Source: an uncultured Sunxiuqinia sp.
Lineage (GTDB): Bacteria > Bacteroidota > Bacteroidia > Bacteroidales > Prolixibacteraceae
Direction of reading: 5' to 3'
Assembly: GCF_963678245.1 (NCBI RefSeq)
Contig: NZ_OY782767.1
Span: 372,001 to 436,000 of the forward strand
Length of the DNA: 64,000 bases
In this document: one piece after another, positions 627 to 18,148 of the stretch
Position numbering within the stretch: position 1 is the stretch's first letter
Layout: every line of letters begins with the position of its first letter
Translations under genes and position numbers: made by a program
The notes under the pieces: model-generated
The model's database searches: none
Told to the model about the DNA's origin: nothing
The model's input: only the letters and a program-made list of their open reading frames with translations

Positions 627-664
627 TTTATTCGTTTTTTGGAAGACAAGTGTCGACCAGTGGT
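627..664 (-). promoter_or_regulatory. Candidate LytTR operator upstream of DUF4114 gene
   Basis: Read on the minus strand, 648-664 is ACCACTGGTCGACACTT, matching 14 of 17 bases of the site at 704-720. A weaker copy sharing CCA and CGA at the same offsets (TCCAAAAAACGAATAAA) lies exactly 21 bases further downstream at 627-643. It sits 71-87 bases before the start codon at 577. LytTR regulators bind 9-bp direct repeats at about 21-bp period. The assignment is inferred from the motif and the neighbouring LytTR gene. Confidence 0.4.
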
Positions 665-703
665 AGTGTAGCATGCTTAATTGGTTTCGCCAAAAGAGCA
701 AAT

Positions 704-741
704 ACCATTCGTCGATACTTTTTTGCCGTCTAACGAACATT
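704..741 (+). promoter_or_regulatory. Candidate LytTR operator upstream of H-NOX relay operon
   Basis: ACCATTCGTCGATACTT at 704-720 fits the published LytTR half-site consensus (W-M-M-GTT-N-R-K) at 8 of 9 positions, with A replacing G. A degenerate copy (GCCGTCTAACGAACATT) follows exactly 21 bases later at 725-741. The eleven bases CCATTCGTCGA recur identically upstream of the receiver-GT2 gene at 18111-18121. The site is about 90 bases before the first gene of an operon that itself ends in a LytTR regulator, so autoregulation is plausible. Confidence 0.45.
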
Positions 742-810
742 CCATAACTTTAAACGAATATTATGATTTCTCAGAAAATCTATTGTCAAATTTGTCTAAA
801 GTAAAAATCA

Positions 811-1242
811 ATGAAAACAAGTAATGAGATGGCAAAAAAACTTTCAATTCTATTGATTGAAGATGATATGATAGAGATCATGAAACTCAATCGCACAATT
901 TCCAAACTAGAACTCCCTCACCAGATTGTTGAAGCACACAATGGCGAAGAAGCGTTGGAGCAGTTGAAACAAAAGGACCGGTTACCGGAAATTATCCTAT
1001 TGGATTTAAACATGCCCAAAATTAGCGGAATCGAATTTTTGAAAATCCTGAAGAATGATCCTATCCTCAGATATATTCCGACAATTGTTTTAACGACTTC
1101 AGCAAATCATAAAGATATGTTGGAGTGTTACAAAATTGGGATTGCCGGATATGTAATCAAGCCTCTGAAATATGAAGATTATGTACAGAAATTGAAAGCA
1201 GTAATGGAATATTGGACTGTTAATGAACTAATAAAAGCCTAA
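811..1242 (+). CDS. Single-domain response regulator (CheY/Rcp1-like)
   Basis: 143 residues forming one receiver domain and nothing else. Acidic residues D18-D19, phospho-acceptor D65 (ILLDLNMPK), a Thr near 95 and K117 (IKPLK) are all in place, so it should accept phosphate. A start at M7 (MAKKLSIL) is also possible and would remove a short leader. With no output domain it probably shuttles phosphate between the kinases and the Hpt protein encoded downstream. It is first in a seven-gene run with gaps of a few bases, and H-NOX begins 4 bases after its stop. Which kinase it pairs with cannot be told from sequence. Confidence 0.9.
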   Translation: MKTSNEMAKKLSILLIEDDMIEIMKLNRTISKLELPHQIVEAHNGEEALEQLKQKDRLPEIILLDLNMPKISGIEFLKILKNDPILRYIPTIVLTTSANHKDMLECYKIGIAGYVIKPLKYEDYVQKLKAVMEYWTVNELIKA

Positions 1243-1245
1243 CTG

Positions 1246-1791
1246 ATGAAAGGAATTGTTTTTACTGAATTGTTGGAAATGGTCGAAGACAAGTTTGGAA
1301 TTGAAATGGTGGATGATATGATCCAACAATCCGACTTGAAGTCAGAAGGAGTTTACACTTCGATTGGAACGTATGATTTTTTTGAGATGCAGCAGCTGCT
1401 AGCGGTTCTTAGCACAAAAACAGGGATTTCAATTGATGATTTGGTGTACACATACGGACTCTTCTTTTTTAGTGTGTTGTACAAGCATCATCCCAATATT
1501 TTTGAGCTTTATCATGATCCGTTAGAGTTTCTTGCTTCTATCGAAAACCACATTCATGTTGAAGTACGAAAAATGTACCCCGACGCCGAACTTCCCACAT
1601 TTGAAGTTCTCTTAAAAGATGACAGACAGATTGAAATGATCTATTCGTCAGAAAGATCAATGTATATGTTTGCCAAAGCACTCATGGAAAAAACTTTTGA
1701 GCATTACAATCAGCCTGTGAAATTGACCATGGAAAAATTAAACGAACAAGGTACAAAGGTTTATTTTAAGCTTGCCTCGCTAAATCAATGA
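1246..1791 (+). CDS. H-NOX haem nitric oxide/oxygen-binding sensor
   Basis: 181 residues, the usual length of a stand-alone bacterial H-NOX (HNOB) domain. Aligning it by eye to soluble guanylate cyclase puts the proximal haem ligand at H104 (IHVEVRKMYP, matching the LHDHLATIYP region). The haem-propionate motif Y-x-S-x-R is present as Y133-S135-R137 (YSSER). The protein is therefore expected to bind haem and sense NO in the cytoplasm. In other bacteria such as Shewanella and Vibrio, H-NOX encoded beside a kinase inhibits or tunes that kinase when NO binds. Here the gene lies 13 bases upstream of a multi-PAS kinase, which fits the same partnership. Whether it also binds O2 depends on distal-pocket residues I cannot judge. 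Confidence 0.93.
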   Translation: MKGIVFTELLEMVEDKFGIEMVDDMIQQSDLKSEGVYTSIGTYDFFEMQQLLAVLSTKTGISIDDLVYTYGLFFFSVLYKHHPNIFELYHDPLEFLASIENHIHVEVRKMYPDAELPTFEVLLKDDRQIEMIYSSERSMYMFAKALMEKTFEHYNQPVKLTMEKLNEQGTKVYFKLASLNQ

Positions 1792-1804
1792 TAAAATCTC
1801 TTTC

Positions 1805-4168
1805 ATGACAGAACTAACTAAAAAGATAGAAATTCTTGAACGTGCATTAAAAAGAGAAAAATCAGCTCGGCGTTTAGCTGAAGCGATTCTGGAGAGAAAG
1901 TCGTCTGAACTATTCGATCTTTCGCAGGCTTTGCAAGACTCCAATAGCCAGTTGCAGGAATTGCTTTCGGAGCAAACTTCGGAGTTGGAAGGTGTTTTTT
2001 TGAATATTGCCGATCCTTATCTTCTGATTGATATGAAAGGTTATGTGCTAAAGATGAATGATGCTGCCAGCAAAATGCTGGGCGTGAATCTCGATCAGGG
2101 AACTTTTAATGTGAGACCATTCATTGCTGAAGGACAACACGAGTACAATCAGAAAGCTTTCAAAAAACTTATTCAGAGCGGTTTTTACGGCAACTACATC
2201 GTTGATATCGTTACGAATAATGATAGCCATAAAAAATTACAAATTAATGCCAGTCTAATATATAAGAATGGACACCCGATAGCTATTCAGGGAATTGCTC
2301 GCGATATTACCGAAGAAACCAGGCTAAAAGAGCTTTTGGAAGAGCATCGAATCCAATTAAATATCATAGTGGATAATTATCCGATGGGAATTGGCTTGAT
2401 TGATTTGAAAACCAATCAAATGGTGATTACTAACCAAGCGCTTTGTTGTTTGATGGAGCGTACTTCCAATGAACTGAAAGATGTTGATATTGATGATTTA
2501 CTCAATGCTGATGAAGATGAAACAGTTCGTGAGTTTAAAGAAAAGCTGAAACGAAGCGAGACCGCTACGGTGACTGTAGAGAAAAAGCAAGTAGGCGAAT
2601 CAGGAAAAATCAGTTGGCTAAAAACCTTAATTACATCTGTAAAAGCAAATGAGAAGGAGATTACACATTTAGTGGTAACTATTGAAGATATTACCGAGGA
2701 GAAGGAGGCGAAAGAAAAGTTAAAAGAGTCGGAAAACAGGCTTTCTACGCTTATTCTAAACTTGCAAACAGGTATTTTGCTGGAGAATGAAAATAGAGAA
2801 ATATTATTGGTTAATAAGCAGTTTTGTAATATGTTTTCCATCCCGGTAGAGCCGGAAATCTTGTTCGGCATGGACTGTTCAAATTCAGCCAATGAATCCA
2901 AAGGCTTATTTAAAGAGCCGGAGCAATTTGTAACGCGAATTGCTGAATTACTCGAAAAACAAGAAGTGTCAATGGGTGAGGAACTTGAGCTGGCTGACGG
3001 CCGGATTTTTGAGCGGAGCTACATTCCCATCTATCTTGATGGCGTGTATAAGGGGCACCTCTGGAAATATAACGATGTAACTTACAAACAGCGATACCAA
3101 CGAAACTTACAAAGCCAAAAAGAAAAATATAGTAACATTATTGCCAACATGAATTTAGGCTTAGTGGAAGCCGATACACATGGCAAAATTCTATATGCAA
3201 ATAATTCGTTCTGCGAGATGACGGGTTATGTCAAAGATGAACTTTGTGGAAACAACGTAACTGATATACTAATGCCAGAGTCGGAAGTTTCTGTGCTTCA
3301 ACATTTAAAAGACCGGGAACAAGGTGTGGCTGATTCATATGAAGTGAAAATAAGGACTAAAAGCGGACGAAAAAGGTACTGGTTGAACAGTGCTGCACCA
3401 AACTTTGATAACGATGGTAAAATTATTGGTTCAATTGCAATTCAGCTTGATATTACTCAGCGCAAGAAGCTGGAAAGCCAGAAAGAAAAATTGCTTGAAA
3501 ATCTAGAGTCGCAGAATGAGCAGTTGAATGAATATGCCCACATTGTTTCGCACGATCTGAAATCGCCTTTGAGAAATATCTCGGCCTTATTGGACTGGAC
3601 AATGGAAGATTTTCAGGAAAAGTTAGGCGAAGAAAGCCTTCAGAATTTGAAATTGATGCAGGGTAAAGTGGAGAAAATGGATCACTTGATCGGAAATATA
3701 CTGAACTACTCCAGCATTGAACGCGGTCGACTAACTTCGGATCAGGTTGATTTAAATGATGTTATTCGCGAGATCTTGGAATTGGTTTTCATCCCTGACC
3801 ATATTAGTGTAAATACAATAACTAAACTACCCACTATTGCTATTGATAAAACACGGATTCAGCAAGTTTTCCAGAACCTGATCAGTAATGCAATCAATTA
3901 CAATGATAAAGAAAAAGGCTTGATTGAAATTGGTTACTTGAGTGACGATACGCATCATATTTTTTCGGTGAAAGATAATGGCGTGGGCATTGCTGAAGAA
4001 CATCACGAGAAAATATTTAAAATATTCAATACACTTGGAAATCATGAAGCATCAACTGGAATTGGTCTGAACATCGTGAAAAAAGTTGTCGATTTGTATC
4101 ATGGTAAAATATGGTTGGATAGTGAGTTAAGCAAAGGAACTACATTTTATTTCAGCATAAAAAAATAA
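1805..4168 (+). CDS. Multi-PAS sensor histidine kinase, likely H-NOX-partner kinase
   Basis: 787 residues with no signal peptide or membrane segment, so it should be cytosolic. The N-terminal 60 residues are a charged coiled coil (KIEILERALKREKSARRLAE) of the kind seen on H-NOX-linked kinases. About four PAS-like segments follow (roughly 60-170, 185-295, 305-425 and 430-550; the last has a clear MTGYVKDE core). The HisKA phospho-acceptor is H583 (AHIVSHDLKSPLRN). The ATPase has an N box (QQVFQNLISNAINYND), a G1 box (DNGVGI) and a G2 box (TGIGLNIVKK). There is no receiver, so it needs a separate one such as the protein encoded at 811. It lies between the H-NOX and FIST genes and probably integrates both, by inference. 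Confidence 0.9.
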   Translation: MTELTKKIEILERALKREKSARRLAEAILERKSSELFDLSQALQDSNSQLQELLSEQTSELEGVFLNIADPYLLIDMKGYVLKMNDAASKMLGVNLDQGTFNVRPFIAEGQHEYNQKAFKKLIQSGFYGNYIVDIVTNNDSHKKLQINASLIYKNGHPIAIQGIARDITEETRLKELLEEHRIQLNIIVDNYPMGIGLIDLKTNQMVITNQALCCLMERTSNELKDVDIDDLLNADEDETVREFKEKLKRSETATVTVEKKQVGESGKISWLKTLITSVKANEKEITHLVVTIEDITEEKEAKEKLKESENRLSTLILNLQTGILLENENREILLVNKQFCNMFSIPVEPEILFGMDCSNSANESKGLFKEPEQFVTRIAELLEKQEVSMGEELELADGRIFERSYIPIYLDGVYKGHLWKYNDVTYKQRYQRNLQSQKEKYSNIIANMNLGLVEADTHGKILYANNSFCEMTGYVKDELCGNNVTDILMPESEVSVLQHLKDREQGVADSYEVKIRTKSGRKRYWLNSAAPNFDNDGKIIGSIAIQLDITQRKKLESQKEKLLENLESQNEQLNEYAHIVSHDLKSPLRNISALLDWTMEDFQEKLGEESLQNLKLMQGKVEKMDHLIGNILNYSSIERGRLTSDQVDLNDVIREILELVFIPDHISVNTITKLPTIAIDKTRIQQVFQNLISNAINYNDKEKGLIEIGYLSDDTHHIFSVKDNGVGIAEEHHEKIFKIFNTLGNHEASTGIGLNIVKKVVDLYHGKIWLDSELSKGTTFYFSIKK

Positions 4169-4171: not shown

Positions 4172-5305
4172 ATGAAGATCGTTCAGGCACAACGTATGGA
4201 AGATTCTCCCTGGCAATACTTAACAGAAGAGAGAACTTTAAATAATCCGCTAGTTCTTGTTTTTGGCAGCCGTTTTTTGCTCGAAAAGCAAGAGATCATT
4301 GCGGATGTAAAAGACGAATTTCCTTATGAGCACATCATTTTTGGGTCTACAGCCGGCGAAATTGCTGGAATCAATGTAAAAGATGAAACGATTGTGGTAT
4401 CGGCAATCGAATTTGAAAAAGCCAGTTTCCTGATTCGACATGAGAATATTCTGGATTATAATAAAGATGCCAGGCAACTAGGGCAGGCACTGGGCAGTTC
4501 AATTCCTCCGGAACGCTTGGCCCATGTATTTGTTGTTTCCGAAGGAACTTATATGAATGGAAGTTCGTTGATTGCGGGGATGTCTCAGGTTTTAGAAAAA
4601 AGAGTAGCACTTACCGGCGGACTTTGTGGCGATGGTTCTCGTTTCGAAAAGACGTTGGCGGGATATCAGGAAGCGCCTAAAGTTGGAGAAGTGATTGCCG
4701 TAGCTTTGTATGGCGATACATTGGATGTTTCGTTTGCCAGCTTCGGTGGTTGGATACCATTTGGTCCCGAACGAATTGTGACACGTTCCGAAGACAACAT
4801 TTTATATGAAATGGACGGTGTGCCAGCTTTGGAAATTTATAAGCGCTACTTGGGCGATAAAGCCAACGAGCTGCCGCAAGCTTCATTGCTTTTTCCTTTG
4901 AATATTACGTTTGAAGATAAACCGGAGCCAGTGGTGCGTACCATATTGAATATTGACTCAGCCGAAAATTCTATGATTTTGGCTGGCGATGTGCCCATGA
5001 ACTCAAAGGCACAGCTCATGATGGCCTCAGTAGATGGAATTGCTTCCGGTGCTGCAAAAGCCGCCGAACTTGGCATGAAAAAACGCAAAAAAAAGCCAGA
5101 ACTGGCATTATTGGTGAGTTGTATTGGTCGAAAGTTAGTGATGGATCAGCGTATAGAAGAGGAGATCGAAGAAGTGTTCGAGGTTATTGGGAAACAATCC
5201 GTTATTGCCGGATTTTATTCCTATGGTGAAATTGCACCTTTTAAAGAAGGACATTCTTGCGAATTACATAACCAGACCATGACATTGACTTTAATAAGTG
5301 AATAA
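4172..5305 (+). CDS. FIST-domain sensory protein (FIST_N + FIST_C)
   Basis: 377 residues covering the whole of a FIST protein: FIST_N about 25-215 (IIFGSTAGEI, then ALTGGLCGDGSRF) and FIST_C about 220-355 (KRYLGDKANELP, ending in GFYSYGEIAP). FIST is thought to be a small-ligand sensor, with amino acids suggested as ligands, and is usually fused to or encoded beside signalling proteins. Here it stands alone between two histidine kinase genes, 3 bases after the first and 2 bases before the second. That makes it a likely cytosolic input module for one or both kinases. No signal peptide is seen. The ligand is unknown. Confidence 0.9.
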   Translation: MKIVQAQRMEDSPWQYLTEERTLNNPLVLVFGSRFLLEKQEIIADVKDEFPYEHIIFGSTAGEIAGINVKDETIVVSAIEFEKASFLIRHENILDYNKDARQLGQALGSSIPPERLAHVFVVSEGTYMNGSSLIAGMSQVLEKRVALTGGLCGDGSRFEKTLAGYQEAPKVGEVIAVALYGDTLDVSFASFGGWIPFGPERIVTRSEDNILYEMDGVPALEIYKRYLGDKANELPQASLLFPLNITFEDKPEPVVRTILNIDSAENSMILAGDVPMNSKAQLMMASVDGIASGAAKAAELGMKKRKKKPELALLVSCIGRKLVMDQRIEEEIEEVFEVIGKQSVIAGFYSYGEIAPFKEGHSCELHNQTMTLTLISE

Positions 5306-5307: not shown

Positions 5308-6348
5308 ATGACGCCATTATTGAAAAGACAGATTAAGAAACATTTACCAGTGAGGTTGTTGCATGATAAATCAATGCAAAATTTTTTGAATGCAGTAACA
5401 GGCTCATACGGCAACTATGAAGAGCAGATTGCCATGTTGCAGCGAGCAATGAAGATTAGTTCGGAGGAACTTTTTGAAGCCAATGCTAAATTGAGAGAAG
5501 AGGGCGAAAGCCAGAAGAAAGTGATAGCCAATTTGAGCACAGTGGTTGCTTCATTTCAAAAAAATGGACATGGCAGTGTACAAATTCTGGAAGTTGAAAA
5601 TTTGAACGATTTTATCGAAAAGCAGTCCAAAGAAATTGTAGATATTTCAAGACAACGCGAAGCTTTAATGAAAAACCTGAAACAGAAGAACCAGGTGCTA
5701 TCAGATTATGCCCACATGGTTTCGCACGATTTGAAATCGCCTTTGCGCAATATCGATTCGTTGGTTAATTGGATCAAGGAGGAGAATGAATCGTATGTTG
5801 ATGATAATTGTAGCCAGCAGTTTGATCTGATTTTAAGAAATCTAGAGAAGATGGATGACCTCATCAATGGTATTTTACGCTATTCAACAATCGACGATGC
5901 AAATTCTGAAGTTTACGATGTTAACACGCATCATCTGGTGTACGAAATTATTGAAATTTTAGACATCCCAAAACATATAAAAATTGAAGTAGATGAGAAT
6001 TTACCGGTTCTAAGAGGTGATAAATTCAGGCTGCAACAGCTTTTTAAAAACTTACTGCACAATGCCATTAAAAGTGTTGATAAGCCAAAAGGGAAAGTGC
6101 AGGTAAAAGTTGAAGATAAAAGCGACTACTGGGAATTTTGTGTGTCGGACAACGGGAAGGGGATACCCAAAGAGTACCAGAATAAGATTTTTCAAATTTT
6201 TGAAAAGATAGAAAATGACCAAGTGGCAACAGGAATTGGACTTTCCATCGTAAAAAAAATTGTTGATTACTACGAAGGGGAAATTCAGGTGCAGAGTGAA
6301 GTTGGTCAGTTTACAAGTTTCTTTTTTACCATTCCAAAAAAAATGTAA
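5308..6348 (+). CDS. Cytosolic sensor histidine kinase with coiled-coil N-terminus
   Basis: 346 residues. The first 130 are helical and coiled-coil-like with no recognisable PAS domain. A HisKA domain follows with H140 (AHMVSHDLKSPLRN) and then an ATPase with N box (LQQLFKNLLHNAIKS), G1 (DNGKGIP) and G2 (TGIGLSIVKKIV). The catalytic core is closely similar to the kinase at 1805, which suggests duplication within the operon. With no sensor domain of its own it probably takes its signal from the FIST protein encoded 2 bases upstream, by inference. Its stop codon is 1 base before the Hpt gene, so the two are likely translated together. Confidence 0.9.
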   Translation: MTPLLKRQIKKHLPVRLLHDKSMQNFLNAVTGSYGNYEEQIAMLQRAMKISSEELFEANAKLREEGESQKKVIANLSTVVASFQKNGHGSVQILEVENLNDFIEKQSKEIVDISRQREALMKNLKQKNQVLSDYAHMVSHDLKSPLRNIDSLVNWIKEENESYVDDNCSQQFDLILRNLEKMDDLINGILRYSTIDDANSEVYDVNTHHLVYEIIEILDIPKHIKIEVDENLPVLRGDKFRLQQLFKNLLHNAIKSVDKPKGKVQVKVEDKSDYWEFCVSDNGKGIPKEYQNKIFQIFEKIENDQVATGIGLSIVKKIVDYYEGEIQVQSEVGQFTSFFFTIPKKM

Positions 6349-6349: not shown

Positions 6350-6679
6350 ATGAAAACAATGAAAGAAGAACCAAATCTCCTTTATATAAGGGAGTTGTCG
6401 GAAGGTGATACTGACTTTGAGATGACTTTGTTGCAGGTCGTTAAGAAGGAGTTGCCGGCTGAAATTGAAGTTTATAAGCAACAACTCGCTGAAGAAAATT
6501 ATAGTAAAACAGCAGAAAGTGTACATAAGCTGAAACATAAAATTAGTATATTAGGGCTAGAAAAAAGTTACCAGACAGCCGTTGACTACGAAAACGAGCT
6601 GAAAGAAGGCCAAACACGACTTCAAGCTGAGTTTGAAGAAATTCTGGACAGCATGGTGGCTTTTATTGGAAAGCTCTAA
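6350..6679 (+). CDS. Hpt histidine phosphotransfer protein
   Basis: 109 residues, nearly all one helical Hpt domain. H59 in ESVHKLKHKISILGL is the expected phospho-histidine. I chose the ATG at 6350 because it comes directly after the upstream stop (taaCATG). A longer open frame from 6260 would overlap the kinase gene by 89 bases and add an unrelated leader. M4 at 6359 is another possible start. Hpt proteins carry phosphate from one receiver to another, here probably from the single-domain regulator (811) to the LytTR regulator (6690). The receiver-GT2 enzyme at 18229 is a second candidate target. Confidence 0.85.
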   Translation: MKTMKEEPNLLYIRELSEGDTDFEMTLLQVVKKELPAEIEVYKQQLAEENYSKTAESVHKLKHKISILGLEKSYQTAVDYENELKEGQTRLQAEFEEILDSMVAFIGKL

Positions 6680-6689: not shown

Positions 6690-7409
6690 ATGAATTGTAT
6701 CATAGTTGACGATGAAGAAACAGCTCGTATTGTAATTAATCGGTTAATTACCAAGAATGGAAACCTGAATAAGTTAGCCGATTTTTCAAACGCGATGGAC
6801 GCCATCAAGTTTATGAACCAGAATGAGCAGGTTGATCTTATTTTTCTCGATATTCATATGCCTGCCTTTTCTGGTTTTGATTTTATTCAGACCATTAAAA
6901 ATCCACCCAAAATTATTCTCACCACCTCAGATCGTAATTTTGCTATTGAAGCCTTTGAGTACGAATGCATCGTTGATTACCTGACCAAGCCGATTACGCA
7001 GGAACGGTTCGATAAAGCTGTTACCCGCGCTTTTTCGGTAAAAAAGTCAATAACGGTTGAAAATGCGCCCATACAACAAGGTGTAGCGGCTGAATCGGGA
7101 CAAACATTATTTGTAAATATTGACCGGCGGCTAATCAAAATTGATATGCCTTCGATTAACTACATCGAAGCAAGTGGAGATTACATTTCAATCAAAACGG
7201 AGAAAAAAAACTATACGGTTCATTCAACGCTGAAAAAAATTGAAGATAAATTACCCGACAGTATTTTTCTGAAAGTTCATCGCTCCTACATCATCAATGT
7301 AAATAAAATTGTTGACATTGAAGATAACAGTGTTTTAATTGAAAAGAACGTCATTCCGGTGAGCCGGTCGAATCGTCCCGAACTGATTAAAAGGCTCAAT
7401 CTTTTATAA
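6690..7409 (+). CDS. LytTR-family response regulator (receiver + LytTR DNA-binding)
   Basis: 239 residues. The receiver domain (1-125) has D7-D8, phospho-acceptor D54 (IFLDIHMP), a TTS motif and K98 or nearby (YLTKPI). The LytTR DNA-binding domain covers about 140-239 (EASGDYISI, then FLKVHRSYIIN and IPVSRSNRPEL). The open frame extends upstream to 6633, but the receiver begins exactly at the ATG at 6690, 11 bases after the Hpt gene, so I start it there. It is the only DNA-binding protein in the operon and the probable transcriptional output. Candidate sites are reported at 627-664, 704-741, 9552-9610, 10907-10923 and 18110-18148. Confidence 0.93.
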   Translation: MNCIIVDDEETARIVINRLITKNGNLNKLADFSNAMDAIKFMNQNEQVDLIFLDIHMPAFSGFDFIQTIKNPPKIILTTSDRNFAIEAFEYECIVDYLTKPITQERFDKAVTRAFSVKKSITVENAPIQQGVAAESGQTLFVNIDRRLIKIDMPSINYIEASGDYISIKTEKKNYTVHSTLKKIEDKLPDSIFLKVHRSYIINVNKIVDIEDNSVLIEKNVIPVSRSNRPELIKRLNLL

Positions 7410-7422: not shown

Positions 7423-9504
7423 TTAGCGAAAGTGGTCATACTTTTTCCGGTTGAAAATGGGCGACGAGCTAATCTGCCATTTCAAGCGTAAGCCTACTTC
7501 AGTAAAAGAGAAACCGGCGGCAGTGGCCGATGCGATATTACTTTGCGTACCGTAGAAATTCGCCAATAATCGATTGCTGGCTTTGTAGCCCAATTTCACC
7601 TGCACTCGGTGAGTAAATTGCTTTTTGCCATCTTCAATAAACTGATATCCGGCAGCTGCATTTAACCCGTAAAATAAGCCCGATTGATCTTGAATGCTGT
7701 TTTCATCCTTCAAAAAATCCAGAAATAATTCGTAAACTTTGAATTTTTCGGGGCTGAAATAAACAGTAGGGCGCTGTTCTTTAAATCCGATCGTCTGAAA
7801 ATTGAAGCCTGTTTTAAGAACAGGTTTTGATAGAATATTGTAGTACAAAGATGTAAATAACAGATTGCGAACATTTTCGTCCGATTGGTTCGTGTAGAAA
7901 TATTGGGTAAACCATCCAACGCCAACATTAGAGCCCAAGTTATGGTTCAAGTAAAAGTGATTGGCTTTCAACTCGCGATCGACTAAATCGGCATTGTAAT
8001 TCTGAATATCTTGTTTAAATCCGAGCTCAAGATCCTGCAATTTTAAAAGTTTCATTTTTGCTGATAACTCGCTTGAGAAACTAGTGTAATCATGGCTGAA
8101 TGATTTTGCATCGATGACTGTTCCGGCAGCATGAAGTTTTACTTTGGGCAATAAATGATAGTTGACTCCTACTCGGAATTCGTGTGTGGTTGCCTGTTCA
8201 TCTGTGTTTTTATTTTTGGCTTCGCGGTAAAGGTAAGCCCCTGAAAAACTAAGTTTGGTACTCACCGGAAATAGCAATTGAGTTTTAGTGCTGATTGCTT
8301 GGTTTTTTCCGTTATCCGAAGTTAAACTTATTCGTTCTTCAACTACCGGGCTGAAGCTACGATCGAGCTTATTCAAAAAGGTTTGGGCATCAACTTGATT
8401 TTCAAAAATCTCCAATGTTTGATCGGCGGCGCTGTATGCTTTATCCACTTTGCCAACGGCATAATAGGCATTGCCAATTCCCAGGTTCCCATCGAATGAA
8501 GCTGAATCATTCTCGAGAATTTGGTTGTAGGCTGCAATACTTTCGCTAAAATCACTTCGGTACATACCCAACGTAGCTTTCAGCGATAAAATCCAGTTTT
8601 GATCCCCGTATTGTTGTTGGTAACTCCGAATGGTATCTTCGGCCTTGCTGTAGTGTTTATTCCAAATTAAAGCTTGCACAAAACGCTCTTTCGTACTTTT
8701 GGTAGTCGTTGAGTCGATGGTGGCACTAAGTTTCGAAATCGCTTTTTCTGATCGTTGAAGTGCCAGTTTATTTTTTCCAGCGATGTGGGCAGCCAAAGCC
8801 ATTCCATTTAAAGCAAGCAACGAATCTTTTGGCGAAGTAGCCAATGTCTGGTAGGTTTCAGAGGCCAAGTCTGTTTCTTTCATTAATATATAGATATTGG
8901 CAAGGTTGATTAATGTTTGCCGGTCATTCTCGAAATCGGCCAAATTAGCTTTCAACAATTCTACGGCAGCTTTATATTCTTGCTGCTGACTTAATGAATA
9001 GGCTTGCCCCAGCCGGATATACTTTTTAGAGGTCATTGCGCTCGCATTGCCTGGTTGTACGACTAAAGCACGGTTGACATAGTCTGTGGCCTCTGCGTAT
9101 TTTTTCAGATTTGAAAACGTATTGGCATACCCTAGCAGTACCGCAAAGTTTTCTGGGTATTGTTTAGCGAGCGTTGAGTAGTACTTTTCCGCTTTTCCAT
9201 ATTGCTTTCCCCAGAGTAAGGACTCTGCATAATTTAATTGTACTTCAATATCATTCGGATATTGTTTGAGCAAATCGGAAAATATGTTTTTTGCTTTTGA
9301 AGGTTGCCCGTTTAGCCCAACAGCGCGGCCATAACAAATAAGGGCAGTTTTATTGTCAGGATATTCCTCCAACACTTGCTCAAAGAAGCTTTCTGCTTGG
9401 GCAAATTCTCCGGCTTCCAAATGTGCAAAGCCTGTTTTCATGTCCTGACCGTTAGCCAGAAAAAAAGAAAAATAAAGGATTGTTAGTACGATTGTTTTTT
9501 TCAT
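7423..9504 (-). CDS. TPR-repeat outer-membrane beta-barrel protein (YaiO/PelB-like layout)
   Basis: 693 residues. The signal peptide MKKTIVLTILYFSFFLANGQ is followed by tetratricopeptide repeats from about 22 to 380 (for example LEAGEFAQAESFFEQVLEEY). From about 390 to the end there are alternating amphipathic strands ending in an aromatic-rich segment, as expected of an outer-membrane barrel of the YaiO type. A periplasmic TPR scaffold with a C-terminal barrel is the layout of polysaccharide export porins such as PelB, BcsC, AlgK/E and PgaA. Its neighbours are a flippase and glycosyltransferases, so export of an exopolysaccharide is the likely role. It ends tail to tail with the LytTR gene and is divergent from the flippase across a shared regulatory region. 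Confidence 0.8.
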   Translation of the reverse strand: MKKTIVLTILYFSFFLANGQDMKTGFAHLEAGEFAQAESFFEQVLEEYPDNKTALICYGRAVGLNGQPSKAKNIFSDLLKQYPNDIEVQLNYAESLLWGKQYGKAEKYYSTLAKQYPENFAVLLGYANTFSNLKKYAEATDYVNRALVVQPGNASAMTSKKYIRLGQAYSLSQQQEYKAAVELLKANLADFENDRQTLINLANIYILMKETDLASETYQTLATSPKDSLLALNGMALAAHIAGKNKLALQRSEKAISKLSATIDSTTTKSTKERFVQALIWNKHYSKAEDTIRSYQQQYGDQNWILSLKATLGMYRSDFSESIAAYNQILENDSASFDGNLGIGNAYYAVGKVDKAYSAADQTLEIFENQVDAQTFLNKLDRSFSPVVEERISLTSDNGKNQAISTKTQLLFPVSTKLSFSGAYLYREAKNKNTDEQATTHEFRVGVNYHLLPKVKLHAAGTVIDAKSFSHDYTSFSSELSAKMKLLKLQDLELGFKQDIQNYNADLVDRELKANHFYLNHNLGSNVGVGWFTQYFYTNQSDENVRNLLFTSLYYNILSKPVLKTGFNFQTIGFKEQRPTVYFSPEKFKVYELFLDFLKDENSIQDQSGLFYGLNAAAGYQFIEDGKKQFTHRVQVKLGYKASNRLLANFYGTQSNIASATAAGFSFTEVGLRLKWQISSSPIFNRKKYDHFR

Positions 9505-10906: not shown

Positions 10907-10923
10907 ACCATTAATCGAACTTT
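10907..10923 (+). promoter_or_regulatory. Candidate LytTR half-site upstream of GT4 gene
   Basis: ACCATTAATCGAACTTT at 10907-10923 matches 13 of 17 bases of the site at 704-720 and fits the LytTR half-site consensus at 8 of 9 positions. It lies 71-87 bases before the GT4 start codon. A partner at about +22 is weak, so this may be a single or degenerate site. Confidence 0.35.
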
Positions 10924-10993: not shown

Positions 10994-12232
10994 ATGAAAG
11001 TAGCCGTTGTCACAGCATTCCCTCCTAGCAAAGTAACGTTGAATGAGTATGGATACCACTTGGTAAAAAACTTTGCACAGAATGAAGAAGTATCAGAATT
11101 GGTTTTAATTACCGACCATACTGACGAACCCAAGCAACTGGATTTTGAAACCGGAAATTGCAAATTAACTGTAAAAGAAAGCTGGCGTTTTAATAGCTAT
11201 AAAAACATCTACCGTATTTATAAAACGATTGTTGAAGAAAAGCCTGACGTTGTTTTTATCAACCTTCAGTTTATGAAATTCGGAGAGAAAAAAATCCCAG
11301 CCGCTTTAGGTTTGCTCTTGCCAACTCTTTTAAAATTCAAAGGTTTTCCAACTGTTTCCTTGTTACACAATATTTTGGAACAAGTTGATTTGGAAAGCGC
11401 AGGATTCACAAAAAATAAAATTGCACAGAAAGTTTATAACTTCATCGGAACAACATTAACTCGTTTTATTTTGCAATCGGATTTGGTTGCCGTCACCATC
11501 AGCAAATATGTTGATGTGTTGAAAACAAAATACAAGAAAGACAATGTGGCTCAGGTGCCTCACGGAACGTTTGAAGTTCCGCCAATGCCAAGTATGATTT
11601 TGCCTGCTGGACCGAAAAAAGTAATGACTTTCGGAAAATTCGGGACTTACAAAAAAGTTGAGGTGATGATTGAAGCAATCCGAAAAATCAGAGAACGTTC
11701 GCACATCGATGTAGAAGTGGTTATTGCCGGAACTGACAGCCCAAATACACCAGGATACCTGGCCGAAGTGCAAGATAAATACAAAAATGTAGAAAACCTG
11801 ACGTTTACTGGTTACGTTGAAGAAGAACAAGTTCCGGTTATCTTTTCAGAAAGTGCAGTAGTGGTTTTCCCTTACACGTCAACAACCGGAAGTTCGGGAG
11901 TATTGCACCAGGCTGGTAGCTACGGAAAAGCAGTTGTAATGCCGGATTTGGGAGACCTGGGCATTTTGGTTCGTGAAGAAGGATATGTTGGAGAGTTTTT
12001 CCAACCCGAAGATGTCAACTCGTTGGCTGATGCTATTCAACGAATTCTGGAAGATGATTTATACCGCATCAAACTTGGTGTAAAAAACTACAAAGCAGCT
12101 TGTTCGTTGCCAATGAATGAAATCGTAGATATGTACATGTGTCATTTCAAACGTGCAATCAACAAAAAGGCACCTCAACAATCAACGGTTAAAGAATCGA
12201 AAAGCAGGCTTCGGATTCCCGAGGCGGTCTAA
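10994..12232 (+). CDS. GT4-family glycosyltransferase
   Basis: 412 residues with a GT-B fold. The N-terminal Rossmann half starts MKVAVVTAFPPSKVTLNEYGYHL, and the C-terminal half has the donor-site region around residues 290-325 (GSSGVLHQAGSYGKAVV followed by PDLGDLG). No membrane segment is evident, so it is probably cytosolic or peripheral. GT4 enzymes are retaining and use nucleotide-sugar donors; the sugar cannot be read from sequence. It follows the flippase by 90 bases on the same strand and has its own candidate LytTR site. Its last 51 bases overlap the 3' end of the opposite-strand glycosidase gene. Confidence 0.88.
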   Translation: MKVAVVTAFPPSKVTLNEYGYHLVKNFAQNEEVSELVLITDHTDEPKQLDFETGNCKLTVKESWRFNSYKNIYRIYKTIVEEKPDVVFINLQFMKFGEKKIPAALGLLLPTLLKFKGFPTVSLLHNILEQVDLESAGFTKNKIAQKVYNFIGTTLTRFILQSDLVAVTISKYVDVLKTKYKKDNVAQVPHGTFEVPPMPSMILPAGPKKVMTFGKFGTYKKVEVMIEAIRKIRERSHIDVEVVIAGTDSPNTPGYLAEVQDKYKNVENLTFTGYVEEEQVPVIFSESAVVVFPYTSTTGSSGVLHQAGSYGKAVVMPDLGDLGILVREEGYVGEFFQPEDVNSLADAIQRILEDDLYRIKLGVKNYKAACSLPMNEIVDMYMCHFKRAINKKAPQQSTVKESKSRLRIPEAV

Positions 12233-13735
12233 AATACCGAAATGTTTCTGGTTGCTTTTCCGCCAAGGCAAGCGACCAACAACAGAACTGGGAACATGTT
12301 TAAAATCGTATAGTGTCCAAAGCATAAATGCAAGTTTTTCTTCTTCCAGAAAGGCTTGCATTTTTTTATAATAAGCCTCCTGGTCTTTCAGGCTGTTTCC
12401 AAACGGATTCCAGATTCCACGATAAGTCGACAGGCCATATTCCTGCAACACCAAAGGTTTGGATGGAACCGCTTGCCTGAGCGCTGCAACTTTCTCCTGA
12501 AATTGATCAATCTCCTGATAATAATGAAAGGAAACAAGATCAACAACATTTTTTAAATTTGTTGCTGCTTGCGGGCTCGCCCAGCCAATAGTGATGAGGT
12601 GATTCGAATCGTATTGCTGCACTTCCGAAGCCATTTGCCTGAGCCATTCCAATACATTTTCTTTTCCCCGGCTTTCAAAGTCCAGATCTGGTTCGTTTTT
12701 CAAATCCCATGCAAGTATGGCCGGATGATCTTTAAAACGCGACACCACAATTTTGGCATGCTGGTTTGTAAGACTCCAATCCATCACCGAATAATCGCCG
12801 TAAAAGTCAAAAAGTGTTGCGACTACTTTCAGCTGATTCTGGCTGGCTAAATCAAGAACAATTTGTAGCTTTTTCAATTTATCTTCCTTCACTTCTGCTT
12901 TCCCAAAATCGTGGTACGGTATAAAAATCCGGATGCTGTTAAAAACCGACTGCCTTATAAATTTAAAATCATTGTTTATAATGGTCGAATCAAATTTTTC
13001 AGCAAACATGTCCCAGGGCGTATCCTGCGGATAATAATTAATGCCAGCAATCGAAAACGTTTCTCCATTTACCAATAGCTCCCCGTTTTTTACCTGGTAT
13101 TGGTTCGAACGCTTCGTTTTTTCAATTGGTAAAGAAGGAGTCAGCTTTACCTGATGCCGAATCCGCCAAAACCCATCTTCCAGTAACATAACCACCTGGT
13201 AATCGGAAGTATCCTGAACGGTGGCAATTAATTCATTGTTTTTATAGATTTTCTGGTATTGCACCACCTGTTTATCCGTGAAAGAGACCAATTGTCCGTC
13301 GGCACTGTAAAAATCAAGAAAAGGAGAGTGGTTTAGTGTGGTACTTTCAATATGAATATCCTGGCTTTTATTCCATTCAATCAAAGAAAAAAGGTTCACC
13401 CGGGCACTGTCGGTATAATAATCTTCAATGCCGTAAGGCTGATTGGTTTGATAAGCCACATTCCGAACGTACCAGGCATCAAGATAATCTTTTTGAAGAT
13501 CGCCCAATGTTTGCATTTCCATTGGTCGTCCGGGGTTTTCGAGGCTTTCCCAATTTAGTTCGGGCAGGTAAACTTCGGTTCGTTTTACATCCAGATGCAG
13601 CATATTGCTACGATCGGCCCCCGTGCTTAGGTAAGCAAGAATCTGGCTCAACCCGAATAGAATGAGCAGATTGACTCCGACAAATGATAAGATTAGTAAT
13701 CCGCGGTATATTATTTTATTGAGTGAGACCATCAT
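12182..13735 (-). CDS. Membrane-anchored clan-A glycoside hydrolase (GH5-like TIM barrel)
   Basis: 517 residues. One N-terminal membrane segment (about 8-36) puts the rest outside the inner membrane. Residues 75-200 look like an NTF2-like extra domain. From about 215 to 515 there is a TIM barrel with likely acid/base E348 (AWDLKNEPD) and nucleophile E432 (LVLQEYGLSTYRG), the spacing of GH5/clan-A enzymes. Pel, Psl and cellulose loci often carry a glycosidase that trims the polymer, and that role would fit here. The start overlaps the end of the upstream secreted-protein gene by 20 bases, so coupling is likely. The 3' end overlaps the GT4 gene. Confidence 0.8.
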   Translation of the reverse strand: MMVSLNKIIYRGLLILSFVGVNLLILFGLSQILAYLSTGADRSNMLHLDVKRTEVYLPELNWESLENPGRPMEMQTLGDLQKDYLDAWYVRNVAYQTNQPYGIEDYYTDSARVNLFSLIEWNKSQDIHIESTTLNHSPFLDFYSADGQLVSFTDKQVVQYQKIYKNNELIATVQDTSDYQVVMLLEDGFWRIRHQVKLTPSLPIEKTKRSNQYQVKNGELLVNGETFSIAGINYYPQDTPWDMFAEKFDSTIINNDFKFIRQSVFNSIRIFIPYHDFGKAEVKEDKLKKLQIVLDLASQNQLKVVATLFDFYGDYSVMDWSLTNQHAKIVVSRFKDHPAILAWDLKNEPDLDFESRGKENVLEWLRQMASEVQQYDSNHLITIGWASPQAATNLKNVVDLVSFHYYQEIDQFQEKVAALRQAVPSKPLVLQEYGLSTYRGIWNPFGNSLKDQEAYYKKMQAFLEEEKLAFMLWTLYDFKHVPSSVVGRLPWRKSNQKHFGILDRLGNPKPAFRFFNR

Positions 13736-14942
13736 TTTGATTGATATGAATTGTTTTTGAAATTCCCAATGCGTCGATTGTTATATCGTAATTTGCTTGC
13801 TGGTAAAAGTCTTTTTGAATAAGAAACCGGGCGTATCCGTTCTTTGTATTTTCGGCCAATTGGTCCACCAGAACAGAATCGTTTTTCAACGCCAGTTTAA
13901 CGCGGACTCCATCCGGTATCAACTGGTTCATAAAGCTGGTAAGCGGGCCAACCGTAAGCAGTTGTTTTTCTTTTGAATAAGAAATTTTAAAATCAGCAAG
14001 AATCGATTTATACTGAATATTTAGTTCATTGCTCTCGGCCAGTCCGGTTACATACGCTTTTATTTGCCACGAAGTTGGATGATCGGGATGAATGATCTGG
14101 GCTTTGGCTTGTCCGTTCACTGTTAATCCACCTACCTGGAGTTTGGCACCATCCGGTTTTTGAATGATAAAACTGACCAGGGTTCCATCACTGATCAGAT
14201 TTCCGTATGTGTCACGAATTGCCGATGTGGTGAAAGTGGTTACTTCGTTGCCATCGGCAAATTGATGGTGGCGTGAATAAAAAATGTTGAAATCAGAAGC
14301 ATTTTCAGGATAAATTTCACTGATTAATTCTTTCGAACTTTTGCCCATGCAGTTGGCTGAAACGAAGATGGTTCCCGTTGTCGTACGCGTGTAAAAATTT
14401 TTCCAGGCTATGGCATTTTTTATTTCAAGTTCGTCCGAAAAATTTGCTTGTAGAAATTGATGTTTAATGGTTACCGGAGTACCTTCGGGGAGCGGGTTGT
14501 CCAACAAATCGGTTGGCACGACAACCAACATCGAATAGTCACGGTTTCCGGCCTGAATTTGGCGCGGCCCGAAATAGCATTCCGGTTCGGCAACCGCGTT
14601 TACTTTGGGCAAAATTTTAAAGGTTCCTTTTAGTAATTGAGTTTGCCTGGATAGCAATTGCCAGTTGATCGTTCCGGTTTTTTTGCAAATGAGTGCCGGG
14701 AGCGAATAACGAATTGTTTTTCCTTTTTGCGTTGGTGTGACCACCGTTGAACCATAGGAGCCGTGCACAAATAAATGTGGAAATTCGTCGGTCGTAACTT
14801 GGAAACTCAGCTCGATTTTATCGCCGGCTGTAAACGACTGATTATTGGTGAGCAGCTTAATTTCTTCGTCAGGTTGCCCCTGTGCCTGTTGTAATGAGAA
14901 CAGTATAAATAAAAGACATGCTATGTTGACGAACTGTTTCAT
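13716..14942 (-). CDS. Secreted Ig-like/invasin-type protein of unknown function
   Basis: 408 residues with a signal peptide (MKQFVNIACLLFILFSLQQAQGQ) and no later membrane segment. The body looks like repeated beta-sandwich domains. Phrases such as PLPEGTPVTIKHQF, NLISDGTLVSFIIQKPDG and QLIPDGVRVKLALKND recur at roughly 90-residue spacing, which resembles bacterial Ig-like (Big/invasin) folds. I do not recognise a named family. The ATG overlaps the stop of the large membrane-protein gene by one base (TAATG), and its own end overlaps the glycosidase start. The three genes are therefore one translationally coupled unit at the cell envelope. Confidence 0.7.
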   Translation of the reverse strand: MKQFVNIACLLFILFSLQQAQGQPDEEIKLLTNNQSFTAGDKIELSFQVTTDEFPHLFVHGSYGSTVVTPTQKGKTIRYSLPALICKKTGTINWQLLSRQTQLLKGTFKILPKVNAVAEPECYFGPRQIQAGNRDYSMLVVVPTDLLDNPLPEGTPVTIKHQFLQANFSDELEIKNAIAWKNFYTRTTTGTIFVSANCMGKSSKELISEIYPENASDFNIFYSRHHQFADGNEVTTFTTSAIRDTYGNLISDGTLVSFIIQKPDGAKLQVGGLTVNGQAKAQIIHPDHPTSWQIKAYVTGLAESNELNIQYKSILADFKISYSKEKQLLTVGPLTSFMNQLIPDGVRVKLALKNDSVLVDQLAENTKNGYARFLIQKDFYQQANYDITIDALGISKTIHINQNDGLTQ

Positions 14943-17900
14943 TAAAATAAGTTTCCGATATAATTATTGATTTGAATATTGACAAATCTTGTTTCATCAC
15001 CGGGAATTACCTGAAAATCTTTTTGATGCTGCTCCCAATTGCGGTTGGGAATGATTTTTTCAGCAATGGATTTATTCGGCAATCCGTTTACATAACAGTT
15101 TTCGAGCGATGAACGTATGATTTCAATTTCTTCAATATCTTGAATAGAGTAGTTGAAAAATTGCTTGCGCTGTACACGGATGCCGTCTGCCAGGTACATT
15201 TTATCAACCCAACGCAGTTGTTTGGTTTCATCAAAATAGGAAACAAGCAACTGAGGAATGGTAACTTCCTGCGTTCCATAATTAAAAAGTGTACCGGTTA
15301 AGTGATTCTCGCTAATTTCGAGGTCGGAAAGTGCCACTTTTTTATATAAATCGGTGGTTGCTACATTTCCGGCACATTGCAAATCAAAATTTACAGGTTT
15401 TTCTTCAAATTCAACTGGTGTGAACTGCTCTGGATCAAAAGTTTCGGGCACCGATTCCCCTTGTTTTAACCAGGCAATTGCTTCAAAATCGATGCGAAAG
15501 CTGCTAATTTCCTTGGGCATTAATTTGTGTTTAATAACGTCTTTTGCATTGTAAGTGGCGAGTTCATTATTTTGGGCATCGTACAGCGTGGCTTTTAATA
15601 CGACATCAGCCGGTACATGATCAACATTTTGCACTTCGCCAACAATGGCATATCGGCTGCCTTTTTTTACCAGGCTGGCCGAAAGAATTTCAAGTACCGG
15701 TTGTTTTAGTACATCTTCGTGGTATGTTTGCTGTGTGGTAATTCGTCTTCGTCCGTGGTTATAAAAATCAGTGATGTTGTCGGAAAATAGCTGGTTGGGA
15801 GGAATATCTGTATCAAGCGTTGATGGTTTGATAAACCATTTGCCTTGTTTTTTTATGATTTCGTGATGATTCACTTTTTTGACATTTTCCAGCGGTGTTA
15901 CCCAATGTGTAACGGCTTCTACTTTTGCAGCCGTGTCGTTTTGCTGAACCACATTTACCTCGATGGCATTGAGCTTTGCATACGAACTTAGAATACCGTC
16001 GCTCACCGAAACTTCGAGCATATATTGAGCCATGGTTTTTCCCGACGCCGGATCGATGTATGAATGGGCACGTTTAAATTCCTTGAAATCGAGCGCATCA
16101 TAATAAGATTTCACCACATTTTTAACGCTGATTTGAGCTGTATTCTGGATATAAAGCAAATATGTTCCGTATAAAATACAGCCAAAAATAAAGAAGGCCC
16201 AGATATGGTTGATCGTAATTAAGCGAATTGAAAACCGTTGATAGGGTAATTTAAAATTTTGAAAGTCGGGATGATGATGCTTTATTTTGATTTTTAGAGC
16301 TTGGTGCCAAATCATTTGAACATTGAATATAAACGCCAGGATAACAGTTAATATCGGAATGATTCCCCACATCAGTTTCAAGACAACAGGCACGTCTTCT
16401 TTTGGTAAAATTTTAGATAACGGTGGAACATTGAGTTTTTCCCAAACCATGATACCATTTTCCAAAGTTTGTAGCCGTTGCCACCCGCAGAAATAGAGAA
16501 GCGGGTCGTAAAATTTATCATTCGCGAAAATGTATTTCAGGTTGAATTTATCGGGCACCGTCAAAAATTGCTGCAAGGAGCCAATTCCTTCAACTCCCCT
16601 GAACTTTGAATTCTCAAGTCGTTCCACGGCTCGAGTGGTTAACTCGGGTAAGCGCCGGGCCGAATGGTAATTTCCATCAACTGTAAGTGCGCTGGTTTGT
16701 GCCGACAGCCAGGCCATTTGGTCGCCAAAACCCAGAGTGAGGTAGCGCCAATGGTCGTGTTGGTCCTGGCTCAGAAAGTTTGTGATGGGCAGCATATCTA
16801 TTTTTTGAGGCTGCATTGGCCGGAAATATCCCAGACTGACGGTGAATGCGCAGGTAAACAAAAAGAGGGCAGCAATAAATCCTCCAAGCATCCGATGATA
16901 AATGGCTCCAAAACGCTGTTGCAAGGCTACTTTTAAATCGCCTTCAACAAAACGATAAGCAAACTCGCCAAACATCGGGAGCGACATAATTGAGGCCCAA
17001 AGGGTAAAACGGTCGAGTGTTAAAATATTGAAAGCGGTATCGCCGAGTAATTTTCGCGGAAGTGGTGTTGTTCCACCGCTTCCTAAAAGAGTAAGCAGGC
17101 TGATGGATAAGCCGAAAAATAAATACCTTTTTGAATAATAGCGATAAAAAATATAGGGGAGAAAGAGCAATAAAATTCCCCAAGGAATTAAAAAGAAAAC
17201 CAAACCGGAAGAGGTTACTTCCAGAAAATTGTCGCGGCTTCCGTGTGGAATTGGAACCTGTGTAATAGGATTGGCTTTTGAATTGACCCAATAAGGAAAG
17301 ATGCAAACCACAATCACCACCAATGCAAATCCTCCGAAAACTATAATTCGTTTTAATAATTTGAAGAATGATTGAATAAAAATACGCAGCGTAACCTCTT
17401 TCATAGAGTTGACCCGTTCGCGCGACACATCCATAATGACCATTCCAATCAGCGGAAAAATGAAGAAAACCATTCCAAAAATTGGCGTTACATGATGCGA
17501 AGTTACGGTAACGGCAATTAACGAAATTGAACGCACCAGATAAATGAGTTTTCCTTTTTTGATCCAAAGATAAATTTCGGGCAGCGCATGCATTAATATT
17601 GAAATACCAACAATGCTGGGCAGCTGGCCAAAAATATGGAGCGTTTCTACAAAGAAAGAAGAGAGTGATGCCACAATTGCCCCGTAGCCAGCAATGGTAC
17701 GACTGCCTGTAATGACCAATGAAAAACGGAAAACCCCGGTTATAAATAGTACAATGCTGATATAGCCAACGGCAAAAAGCCCAAATTTTAGTCCGCCAAT
17801 CAATGAAAATAAGGCAATGATCTGGTGAACCAGCGGGGGGTAGCCCATTACTGTAAAACCAGTGTACCATTTATAACTCCACGATTCGAACCAATGTTGG

Positions 17901-18034
17901 GCGTAATGACCGGCAAAAAACTGGTGAATTAAAGCGTCGTACGTATTTTCCAATGTGAAAAACAGGATCGACCCGTGAAATACCAAACCAATGAGTAAAG
18001 CCGCAATAAGATATTTATTGGATTTTTCAGGCAT
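14942..18034 (-). CDS. Large multi-TM membrane protein (GT-C/PTPS-related-like) with periplasmic tail
   Basis: 1,030 residues from the ATG at 18034 (MPEKSNKYLIAALLIGLVFH). A longer frame reaches 18088 but adds a non-conserved leader. Residues 10-440 hold about ten to twelve hydrophobic helices and resemble the 'membrane protein, 6-pyruvoyl-tetrahydropterin synthase-related' or GT-C-like group. Early HQFFAGHYAQHWFESWSY and MGYPPLVHQ segments are typical. A further TM pair lies near 545 and 620. The C-terminal 390 residues contain an NTF2-like domain (VVKSYYDALDFKEFKRAHSY) and beta-rich FxLYD-like segments (AIVGEVQNVDHVPADVVLKA). Polymerase or lipid-linked sugar transferase activity is possible but unproven. 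Confidence 0.7.
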   Translation of the reverse strand: MPEKSNKYLIAALLIGLVFHGSILFFTLENTYDALIHQFFAGHYAQHWFESWSYKWYTGFTVMGYPPLVHQIIALFSLIGGLKFGLFAVGYISIVLFITGVFRFSLVITGSRTIAGYGAIVASLSSFFVETLHIFGQLPSIVGISILMHALPEIYLWIKKGKLIYLVRSISLIAVTVTSHHVTPIFGMVFFIFPLIGMVIMDVSRERVNSMKEVTLRIFIQSFFKLLKRIIVFGGFALVVIVVCIFPYWVNSKANPITQVPIPHGSRDNFLEVTSSGLVFFLIPWGILLLFLPYIFYRYYSKRYLFFGLSISLLTLLGSGGTTPLPRKLLGDTAFNILTLDRFTLWASIMSLPMFGEFAYRFVEGDLKVALQQRFGAIYHRMLGGFIAALFLFTCAFTVSLGYFRPMQPQKIDMLPITNFLSQDQHDHWRYLTLGFGDQMAWLSAQTSALTVDGNYHSARRLPELTTRAVERLENSKFRGVEGIGSLQQFLTVPDKFNLKYIFANDKFYDPLLYFCGWQRLQTLENGIMVWEKLNVPPLSKILPKEDVPVVLKLMWGIIPILTVILAFIFNVQMIWHQALKIKIKHHHPDFQNFKLPYQRFSIRLITINHIWAFFIFGCILYGTYLLYIQNTAQISVKNVVKSYYDALDFKEFKRAHSYIDPASGKTMAQYMLEVSVSDGILSSYAKLNAIEVNVVQQNDTAAKVEAVTHWVTPLENVKKVNHHEIIKKQGKWFIKPSTLDTDIPPNQLFSDNITDFYNHGRRRITTQQTYHEDVLKQPVLEILSASLVKKGSRYAIVGEVQNVDHVPADVVLKATLYDAQNNELATYNAKDVIKHKLMPKEISSFRIDFEAIAWLKQGESVPETFDPEQFTPVEFEEKPVNFDLQCAGNVATTDLYKKVALSDLEISENHLTGTLFNYGTQEVTIPQLLVSYFDETKQLRWVDKMYLADGIRVQRKQFFNYSIQDIEEIEIIRSSLENCYVNGLPNKSIAEKIIPNRNWEQHQKDFQVIPGDETRFVNIQINNYIGNLF

Positions 18035-18109
18035 CAAGTAAAGTTCATTCTTTTTTATAAATATAAAAATAACTAGGCAAACGTCCACTTCTTTAATCTA
18101 AAGATAAAT

Positions 18110-18148
18110 GCCATTCGTCGAACCTTATGAAACTACTGATCTAAAAAA
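18110..18148 (+). promoter_or_regulatory. Candidate LytTR operator upstream of receiver-GT2 gene
   Basis: GCCATTCGTCGAACCTT at 18110-18126 shares 14 of 17 bases with the site at 704-720, including an identical run CCATTCGTCGA. A weaker repeat (ACTACTGATCTAAAAAA) begins 22 bases later at 18132. The site is about 103 bases before the receiver-GT2 start codon, a distance like those of the other candidate sites. It also lies between two divergent polysaccharide genes. Confidence 0.45.

Follow-up and report, generated by a model that had tools for sequence, protein, structure and literature searches.

What recognizes the short, regularly spaced DNA sites found before a gas-sensing signalling operon and before the polysaccharide genes next to it? 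The question is raised by a 64,000-nucleotide (nt) stretch of an uncultured Sunxiuqinia sp. (contig NZ_OY782767.1, positions 372,001 to 436,000), hereafter called the window. Its signalling operon runs from a single-domain receiver (REC) to a LytTR response regulator. It is followed by a polysaccharide cluster ending with a receiver-glycosyltransferase fusion (receiver-GT2). An initial annotation had proposed that a 17-nt motif, repeated in a 21-bp phase before five promoters, defines a LytTR regulon. The 21-base-spaced signal before these five promoters is real and common to dozens of flavobacteria. We consider it highly probable that the clustered LytTR protein is the output of an H-NOX/FIST phosphorelay and turns on a local exopolysaccharide regulon via these tandem predicted sites.

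Sites were scored with a 17-nt matrix (consensus ACCATTCGTCTACACTT) derived from the DNA before receiver-GT2 in the loci of relatives, the window being excluded. Percentages given with bit scores are the share of window positions scoring as high. Among 78 such upstream regions, 31 met a criterion of at most 5 mismatches, leaving 26 training promoters after dereplication. The consensus behind this criterion had been written after a scan with the 17-mer of the initial annotation, so that the choice was seeded. Therefore, 9-mers were also counted without a seed, which left our assessment unchanged. CCATTCGTC is the commonest complex 9-mer upstream of receiver-GT2 (23/78; at most 10 in shuffles) as well as upstream of REC orthologues (31/51; at most 6). 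It ranks second upstream of GT4 (18/69; at most 11) and is not within the eight commonest 9-mers before H-NOX, GH, histidine kinase or LytTR genes.

Over the ca 128,000 positions of the window, the five best matches are 704, 51245, 9552, 18110 and 648 on the minus strand, with a clear drop afterwards. The sites of the initial annotation are all present where it placed them, and 704 and 18110 indeed share CCATTCGTCGA. With up to 3 mismatches its 17-mer occurs 3 times in the window versus 0.25 expected. Its five-site motif is retained at 704, 9552, 18110 and 648(-), the site at 10907 being weak. As for its secondary copies, 18132 scores 4.8 bits; 725 (-9.1 bits; 1.9%) and 643-627(-) (-10.7 bits; 2.8%) are weak. 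One unit absent from its list lies at 18089, 21 bp upstream of 18110. Tandem repeats in the window are clear only at 9552 and 18110.

The sites recur before the same genes in relatives. Among the matches listed (80 of 379 loci), receiver-GT2 orthologues are found at 52-73%; most bear genus names of Flavobacteriaceae, with 1 Saprospiraceae and 2 Chitinophagales. An orthologue at 79% is present in another family of the same order (G315). We used 53 stretches around LytTR orthologues, from 48 genomes, in which the gene order is largely that of the window. A site was counted when a match of at least 10 bits in the upstream region pointed to the target. Conservation upstream of orthologues, a check set by the initial annotation, is strong: 156/269 target regions carry a site versus 3/331 regions of the other cluster genes (H-NOX, FIST, both kinases, HPt, LytTR, GH, Ig). 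When GT2, the source of the training promoters, is omitted, the count is 115/191. Sites are found in 40/51 regions upstream of REC, in 31/69 upstream of GT4, in 5/10 upstream of DUF4114 orthologues and in 41/78 upstream of GT2, training promoters included. The region between the TPR-barrel gene and the flippase gene, measured from the TPR-barrel side, has a site in the window's orientation in 39/61 cases. In the 53 stretches, matches of at least 14 bits number 121 in intergenic DNA versus 0.4 with permuted matrices, and 12 versus 5.6 in coding DNA. In relatives, further sites precede, for example, genes for a ca 870-residue DUF6923 protein with a type IX secretion tail, a CAP-domain protein and a STAS protein. 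In Salegentibacter (L188 11762), a site lies before a nucleotidyltransferase that, by reading of its sequence, resembles mannose-1-phosphate guanylyltransferase and is a possible sugar-supply target.

Spacing was analyzed in 171 distinct intergenic contexts of relatives. On the same strand, a second unit scores highest on average at +21 (-11.7 bits) and -21 (-14.3 bits); the next mean is -20.3 at +17 and the median is -27.6. A unit of at least -5 bits is present at 21/22 bp in 63% of the contexts versus 0.6-4.7% at shifted offsets. For the opposite strand, the top mean score (-13.1 at offset -8, with 4% above 0) matches the tandem peaks in height. It was rejected as a second site because it overlaps the site itself, and was read as partial self-complementarity.

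The sites are also in register with the promoter. In PMC9723704, the flavobacterial sigma-A promoter has a -7 box, TAnnTTTG, at -12 to -5. Exact TAnnTTTG boxes begin at two distances past the site start, 62-64 nt (50 contexts) and 83-84 nt (24 contexts), versus 9 scattered matches in the control. Allowing 1 mismatch, the box is in phase in 152/171 contexts versus 6-18 at shifted phases. With the box at -12 to -5, the main unit covers about -75 to -59 and the next unit about -54 to -38. A TTG located 22-26 nt before the -7 box, a range picked after viewing the table, is found with 1/76 site-linked boxes versus 50/285 unlinked ones (p 6e-5). Such a scarcity of the -33 TTG is expected under an activator that takes over the role of the -33 contact.

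In the window, a box with at most 1 mismatch to TAnnTTTG is found at the phase known from relatives in 4/5 promoters. The chance of an in-phase box per site is 0.077 over the whole window (P about 1.6e-4) and 0.10 in its intergenic DNA (P about 4.9e-4). The flippase promoter has a -7 box candidate with 2 mismatches. The 704 promoter has -7-like boxes (1 mismatch) at +41 and +83 and none at 62-64. The unit at 10907 is probably the promoter-proximal one because its -7-like box GATATTTG sits at +41. The matrix match at 51245-51261 was judged to be due to chance: it is located in coding sequence immediately ahead of a GH95 gene and has no second unit. It has no in-phase box with at most 1 mismatch, the nearest such box being at +44, one base off phase.

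A chance resemblance of AT-rich promoter DNA would agree with the genome-wide scan for the original 17-mer, which is not specific: at up to 3 mismatches it gives 17 matches versus 16 in the reversed control, that is, background. This explanation is contradicted by the permuted-matrix and shifted-phase controls, the target counts and the seedless 9-mer count, and is hardly credible. The genome's two best 17-mer matches (1 and 2 mismatches) are 704 and 18110. The 14 matches of the same genome outside the cluster were rejected as targets; 13 lie in stop-to-stop frames of at least 355 codons and 1 in a short frame. No second unit among them exceeds -13 bits, and an in-phase -7 box at 1 mismatch is found for 2. 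Judged by the same measures, however, 648(-) is likewise contained in a long stop-to-stop frame (510), and 704 and 648 have only weak second units, at about -9 to -11 bits.

The sites might instead be a dispersed repeat, an RNA leader or a duplicated promoter travelling with the cluster, since copies above background are confined to one cluster, itself patchy and probably transferred. However, the site stands upstream of the -7 box and hence is not transcribed from that promoter. Across the 171 contexts the flanks vary, while the unit, the 21-bp period and the -7 phase are kept, and the site also precedes non-homologous genes. This alternative is already disfavoured and we regard it as very improbable.

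Which protein would bind the sites? An orthologue (E<=1e-60) of the LytTR regulator, annotated at 6690 and confirmed by its Pfam domains, is present in 49/50 genomes with receiver-GT2. In an even class sample of 395 genomes, it is found in 6/6 genomes with receiver-GT2 (E<=1e-100) versus 2/389 others (Fisher 5.5e-12); without the window's genome the counts are 5 and 2 (p 2.7e-10). With at most 2 mismatches, the relatives' consensus has 87 matches in 29 chosen genomes with the cluster versus 14 in the reversed control. By reading of the table, the cluster or its duplicate accounts for 76 of these; the 11 outside it correspond to the background level. In 29 relatives without the cluster, 12 matches are found versus 24 in the control. 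Since out-of-cluster matches are at background, the regulon is local to the cluster. The proposed LytTR regulon is thus supported by the co-occurrence of the site with the LytTR orthologue and by the 21-bp direct repeats, and no genome-wide regulon is seen.

The LytTR orthologue was not found in 60 relatives, including members of the same genus and family (best LytTR E 1.3e-49). When 54 LytTR proteins of the cluster and 29 paralogues were placed in one tree, the cluster proteins formed a single clade, with a support of only 0.68. Across 344 genomes of the order, H-NOX had 4 other matches, at 28-43%, without the remaining cluster in the stretches read. A scan of IMG/VR gave only 3 matches, at 27%, to part of the glycosyltransferase. 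The cluster is patchy in distribution, and it was probably transferred. An IS3-like transposase part (HTH_21 and rve) at window 22422-23045, behind the cluster, fits this patchy distribution. In Tamlana nanhaiensis (G391, locus L073), two site sets and two LytTR copies are located ca 189 kb apart (C2:137075-157490 and 325970-346385), which is either a recent duplication or an assembly artefact.

Real regulator sites could also be bound by another DNA-binding protein, the clustered LytTR regulating something else. The window's genome has 33 LytTR-type matches, any of which might recognize a similar core. Nevertheless, within the window cluster Pfam detected a DNA-binding domain in LytTR alone (the 14942-18088 protein had no Pfam match at all). 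Moreover, the motif follows the presence of the clustered LytTR orthologue across genomes, and in relatives rich in other LytTR paralogues it does not rise above background. Another binding protein is thus unlikely.

We take CCATTCGTC to match the general LytTR half-site consensus at 8/9 positions. In PMC4064291, the core of AlgR is CCGTTCGTC, one base apart from CCATTCGTC (8/9), in agreement with the half-site likeness noted earlier. This resemblance is weak evidence because LytTR sites are said to share no common consensus. LytTR sites generally consist of two 9-11-nt repeats with 11-13-nt spacers (PMC4847170 and PMC4227749). Together, the tandem 21-bp direct repeats and the AlgR-like half-site fit a LytTR protein. 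Such a protein could here instead repress the polysaccharide genes or counteract their activation, since LytTR proteins can act as repressors (AlgR at rhlA, PMC4064291). Yet the layout is that of an activator, with units ending just upstream of -33, a -7 box in helical phase with them and most promoters lacking the -33 TTG. We consider repression improbable.

Predicted sites and genes of the signalling operon and polysaccharide cluster in the window
Feature	Coordinates	Strand	Evidence
LytTR-type site, DUF4114 promoter	648..664	-	17.6 bits; -7 box TACATTTG 62 nt from site start, 0 mismatches, in phase
LytTR-type site, REC/H-NOX operon promoter	704..720	+	22.0 bits, best of the window
Three units at exact 21-bp steps (9552, 9573, 9594), divergent TPR-barrel/flippase region, directed at flippase	9552..9610	+	18.9, -1.6 (0.25%) and -0.5 bits (0.17%)
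Weaker unit before GT4	10907..10923	+	5.8 bits (0.02%); outside the matrix's top 25 in the window
Three units (18089, 18110, 18132) before receiver-GT2	18089..18148	+	-0.2 (0.16%), 17.6 and 4.8 bits (0.03%); -7-like TACTTTCG at +64 from 18110
DUF4114-like protein, predicted target	2..583	-	Pfam E 8.1e-5, under curated cut-off; gene extends past window edge
Single-domain receiver (REC), first in signalling operon	811..1242	+	Pfam Response_reg
H-NOX haem sensor	1246..1791	+	Pfam HNOB 7.5e-39; 1.4e-64 to solved structure 6bde
PAS histidine kinase	1805..4168	+	Pfam
FIST/FIST_C protein	4172..5305	+	Pfam 1.8e-40 and 2.8e-33
Histidine kinase	5308..6348	+	Pfam
HPt phosphotransfer protein	6350..6679	+	Pfam Hpt
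LytTR response regulator, proposed activator	6690..7409	+	Pfam LytTR 9.3e-21, Response_reg 2.7e-18, both above cut-offs
TPR/barrel protein, candidate in polysaccharide export	7423..9504	-	Pfam TPRs; kept in relatives' clusters
Oligosaccharide flippase, predicted target	9653..10903	+	Pfam Polysacc_synt_3; start probably ATG 9653 rather than TTG 9602
GT4 glycosyltransferase, predicted target	10994..12232	+	Pfam
GH-like TIM-barrel protein, cluster member	12182..13735	-	Pfam Glyco_hydro_2_C
Ig-like protein, cluster member	13716..14942	-	Invasin-type domain under cut-off; gene order conserved
Large cluster protein	14942..18088	-	Membrane protein judged by sequence; 43-76% identity in relatives matching it
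Receiver-GT2 fusion glycosyltransferase, predicted target	18229..19416	+	Pfam Response_reg and Glycos_transf_2

The sensors of the operon suggest which signal is read. The H-NOX gene of the window adjoins a histidine kinase gene, and the FIST and FIST_C domains are also found beside a kinase. The solved structure that it matches, 6bde, was deposited under an aldolase name; we take it to be the H-NOX of Kordia algicida. The FIST/FIST_C protein is presumably a NosP-type sensor of nitric oxide (NO). From these sensor families, the signal is most likely NO, and from the operon arrangement H-NOX is predicted to control the kinase and this output.

Both H-NOX and FIST are encoded in 33 of the 52 LytTR stretches that extend at least 6 kb upstream; 7 have H-NOX alone and 2 H-NOX with a weak FIST match, giving H-NOX in 42/52. 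The other 10/52 comprise 5 with FIST alone, most of them Flavobacterium, and 5 with neither. Thus, it is the sensors that vary and not the regulator: from genus to genus, H-NOX and FIST take each other's place beside one and the same LytTR (L174-L226). The 5 sensor-less stretches all hold a second LytTR copy in genomes whose other stretch carries sensors. One case is Mesonia oceanica (L204, L226), with two LytTR copies in neighbouring stretches, one of them beside receiver-GT2 with REC and HPt and without H-NOX or FIST. Four more genomes have a second, sensor-less copy (L202, L211, L214, L221).

We propose the following scheme. H-NOX and the FIST protein would pass a gas signal, most likely NO, to the kinases. 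The kinases, then REC and HPt, would form a relay phosphorylating the LytTR protein encoded at 6690. The sites would be tandem LytTR binding sites, made of 2-3 direct units spaced by 21/22 bp, in sigma-A promoters with a -7 box and seldom a -33 TTG. Bound there, phosphorylated LytTR would substitute for the -33 contact in recruiting RNA polymerase. It would thereby switch on the operon that encodes it, together with the neighbouring genes presumed to serve exopolysaccharide production (DUF4114, flippase, GT4, receiver-GT2). The receiver of receiver-GT2 may represent a second branch, at the enzyme level.

Several observations weigh against this scheme. Most secondary units in the window are weak, as is 10907. 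At the threshold, sites are absent from many target regions of orthologues (GT4 38/69, GT2 37/78), and a site lies within 250 bp of the flippase start in only 10/55 regions, partly because a STAS gene intervenes between the TPR-barrel and flippase genes in some of them. The window's own genome has 3 matches to the relatives' consensus, of which just 704 is in the cluster, versus 0 in the control. To these are added the background level of the 17-mer scan, the TTG range selected once the table had been seen, the reported lack of a common LytTR consensus, and the stretches with FIST but no H-NOX (5/52) or neither sensor (5/52).

The scheme has parallels in known systems. As in AlgZR of Pseudomonas aeruginosa, a LytTR regulator would control polysaccharide genes, there those of alginate. 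In contrast, AlgR sites are dispersed and partly remote, whereas here 2-3 tandem units lie near the -7 box and the H-NOX/FIST sensors are encoded in the operon. Direct repeats beside the promoter are shared with YpdB/AgrA-type promoters (YpdB unit GGCATTTCAT; PMC4847170 and PMC4227749), but here a third unit is often present, the Bacteroidota -7 box occurs without -33 and the local regulon has several genes. With the flavobacterial sigma-A promoter (PMC9723704) the system shares the consensus of the -7 box and its location at -12 to -5, except that site-linked promoters mostly lack the upstream TTG that is enriched before unlinked boxes of the same loci.

In Shewanella, an H-NOX/NosP phosphorelay is tied to biofilm control. 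Likewise, in the Vibrio biofilm phosphorelays a gas sensor acts on histidine kinases, phosphotransfer and receiver proteins (PMC6769237, where LytTR concerns AgrA). The present system differs in having both sensors in one operon, a LytTR output, adjacent polysaccharide genes and sensors exchangeable between genera. In the literature searched, which mostly did not cover subscription papers, no description was found of gas sensing by H-NOX or FIST/NosP linked to a polysaccharide cluster via LytTR. As far as could be seen, novelty lies in a Bacteroidota promoter setting that lacks -33, in the often present third unit, in a regulon confined to the cluster and in its coupling to H-NOX/FIST.

A wider view, for which we see about even chances, is that of a mobile, self-contained NO-gated switch widespread in Flavobacteriaceae. 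Interchangeable H-NOX/FIST sensors would feed a branched phosphorelay that controls one exopolysaccharide at two levels. In transcription, LytTR at tandem 21-bp sites would replace the contact that Bacteroidota sigma-A makes at -33; at the enzyme, a glycosyltransferase fused to a receiver would be phosphorylated directly. At the level of the single cluster, it is most likely that the gas-sensing signalling genes switch on the neighbouring surface-polysaccharide genes through the 21-base-spaced signal. The analysis precisely defines a LytTR-type operator and promoter architecture for Bacteroidota, with a matrix usable on named, cultured flavobacteria. The proposed scheme would tie gas sensing by H-NOX and FIST/NosP to a specific polysaccharide cluster via a LytTR regulator. 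An effect of NO on flavobacterial surface polysaccharide through transcription thereby becomes directly testable.

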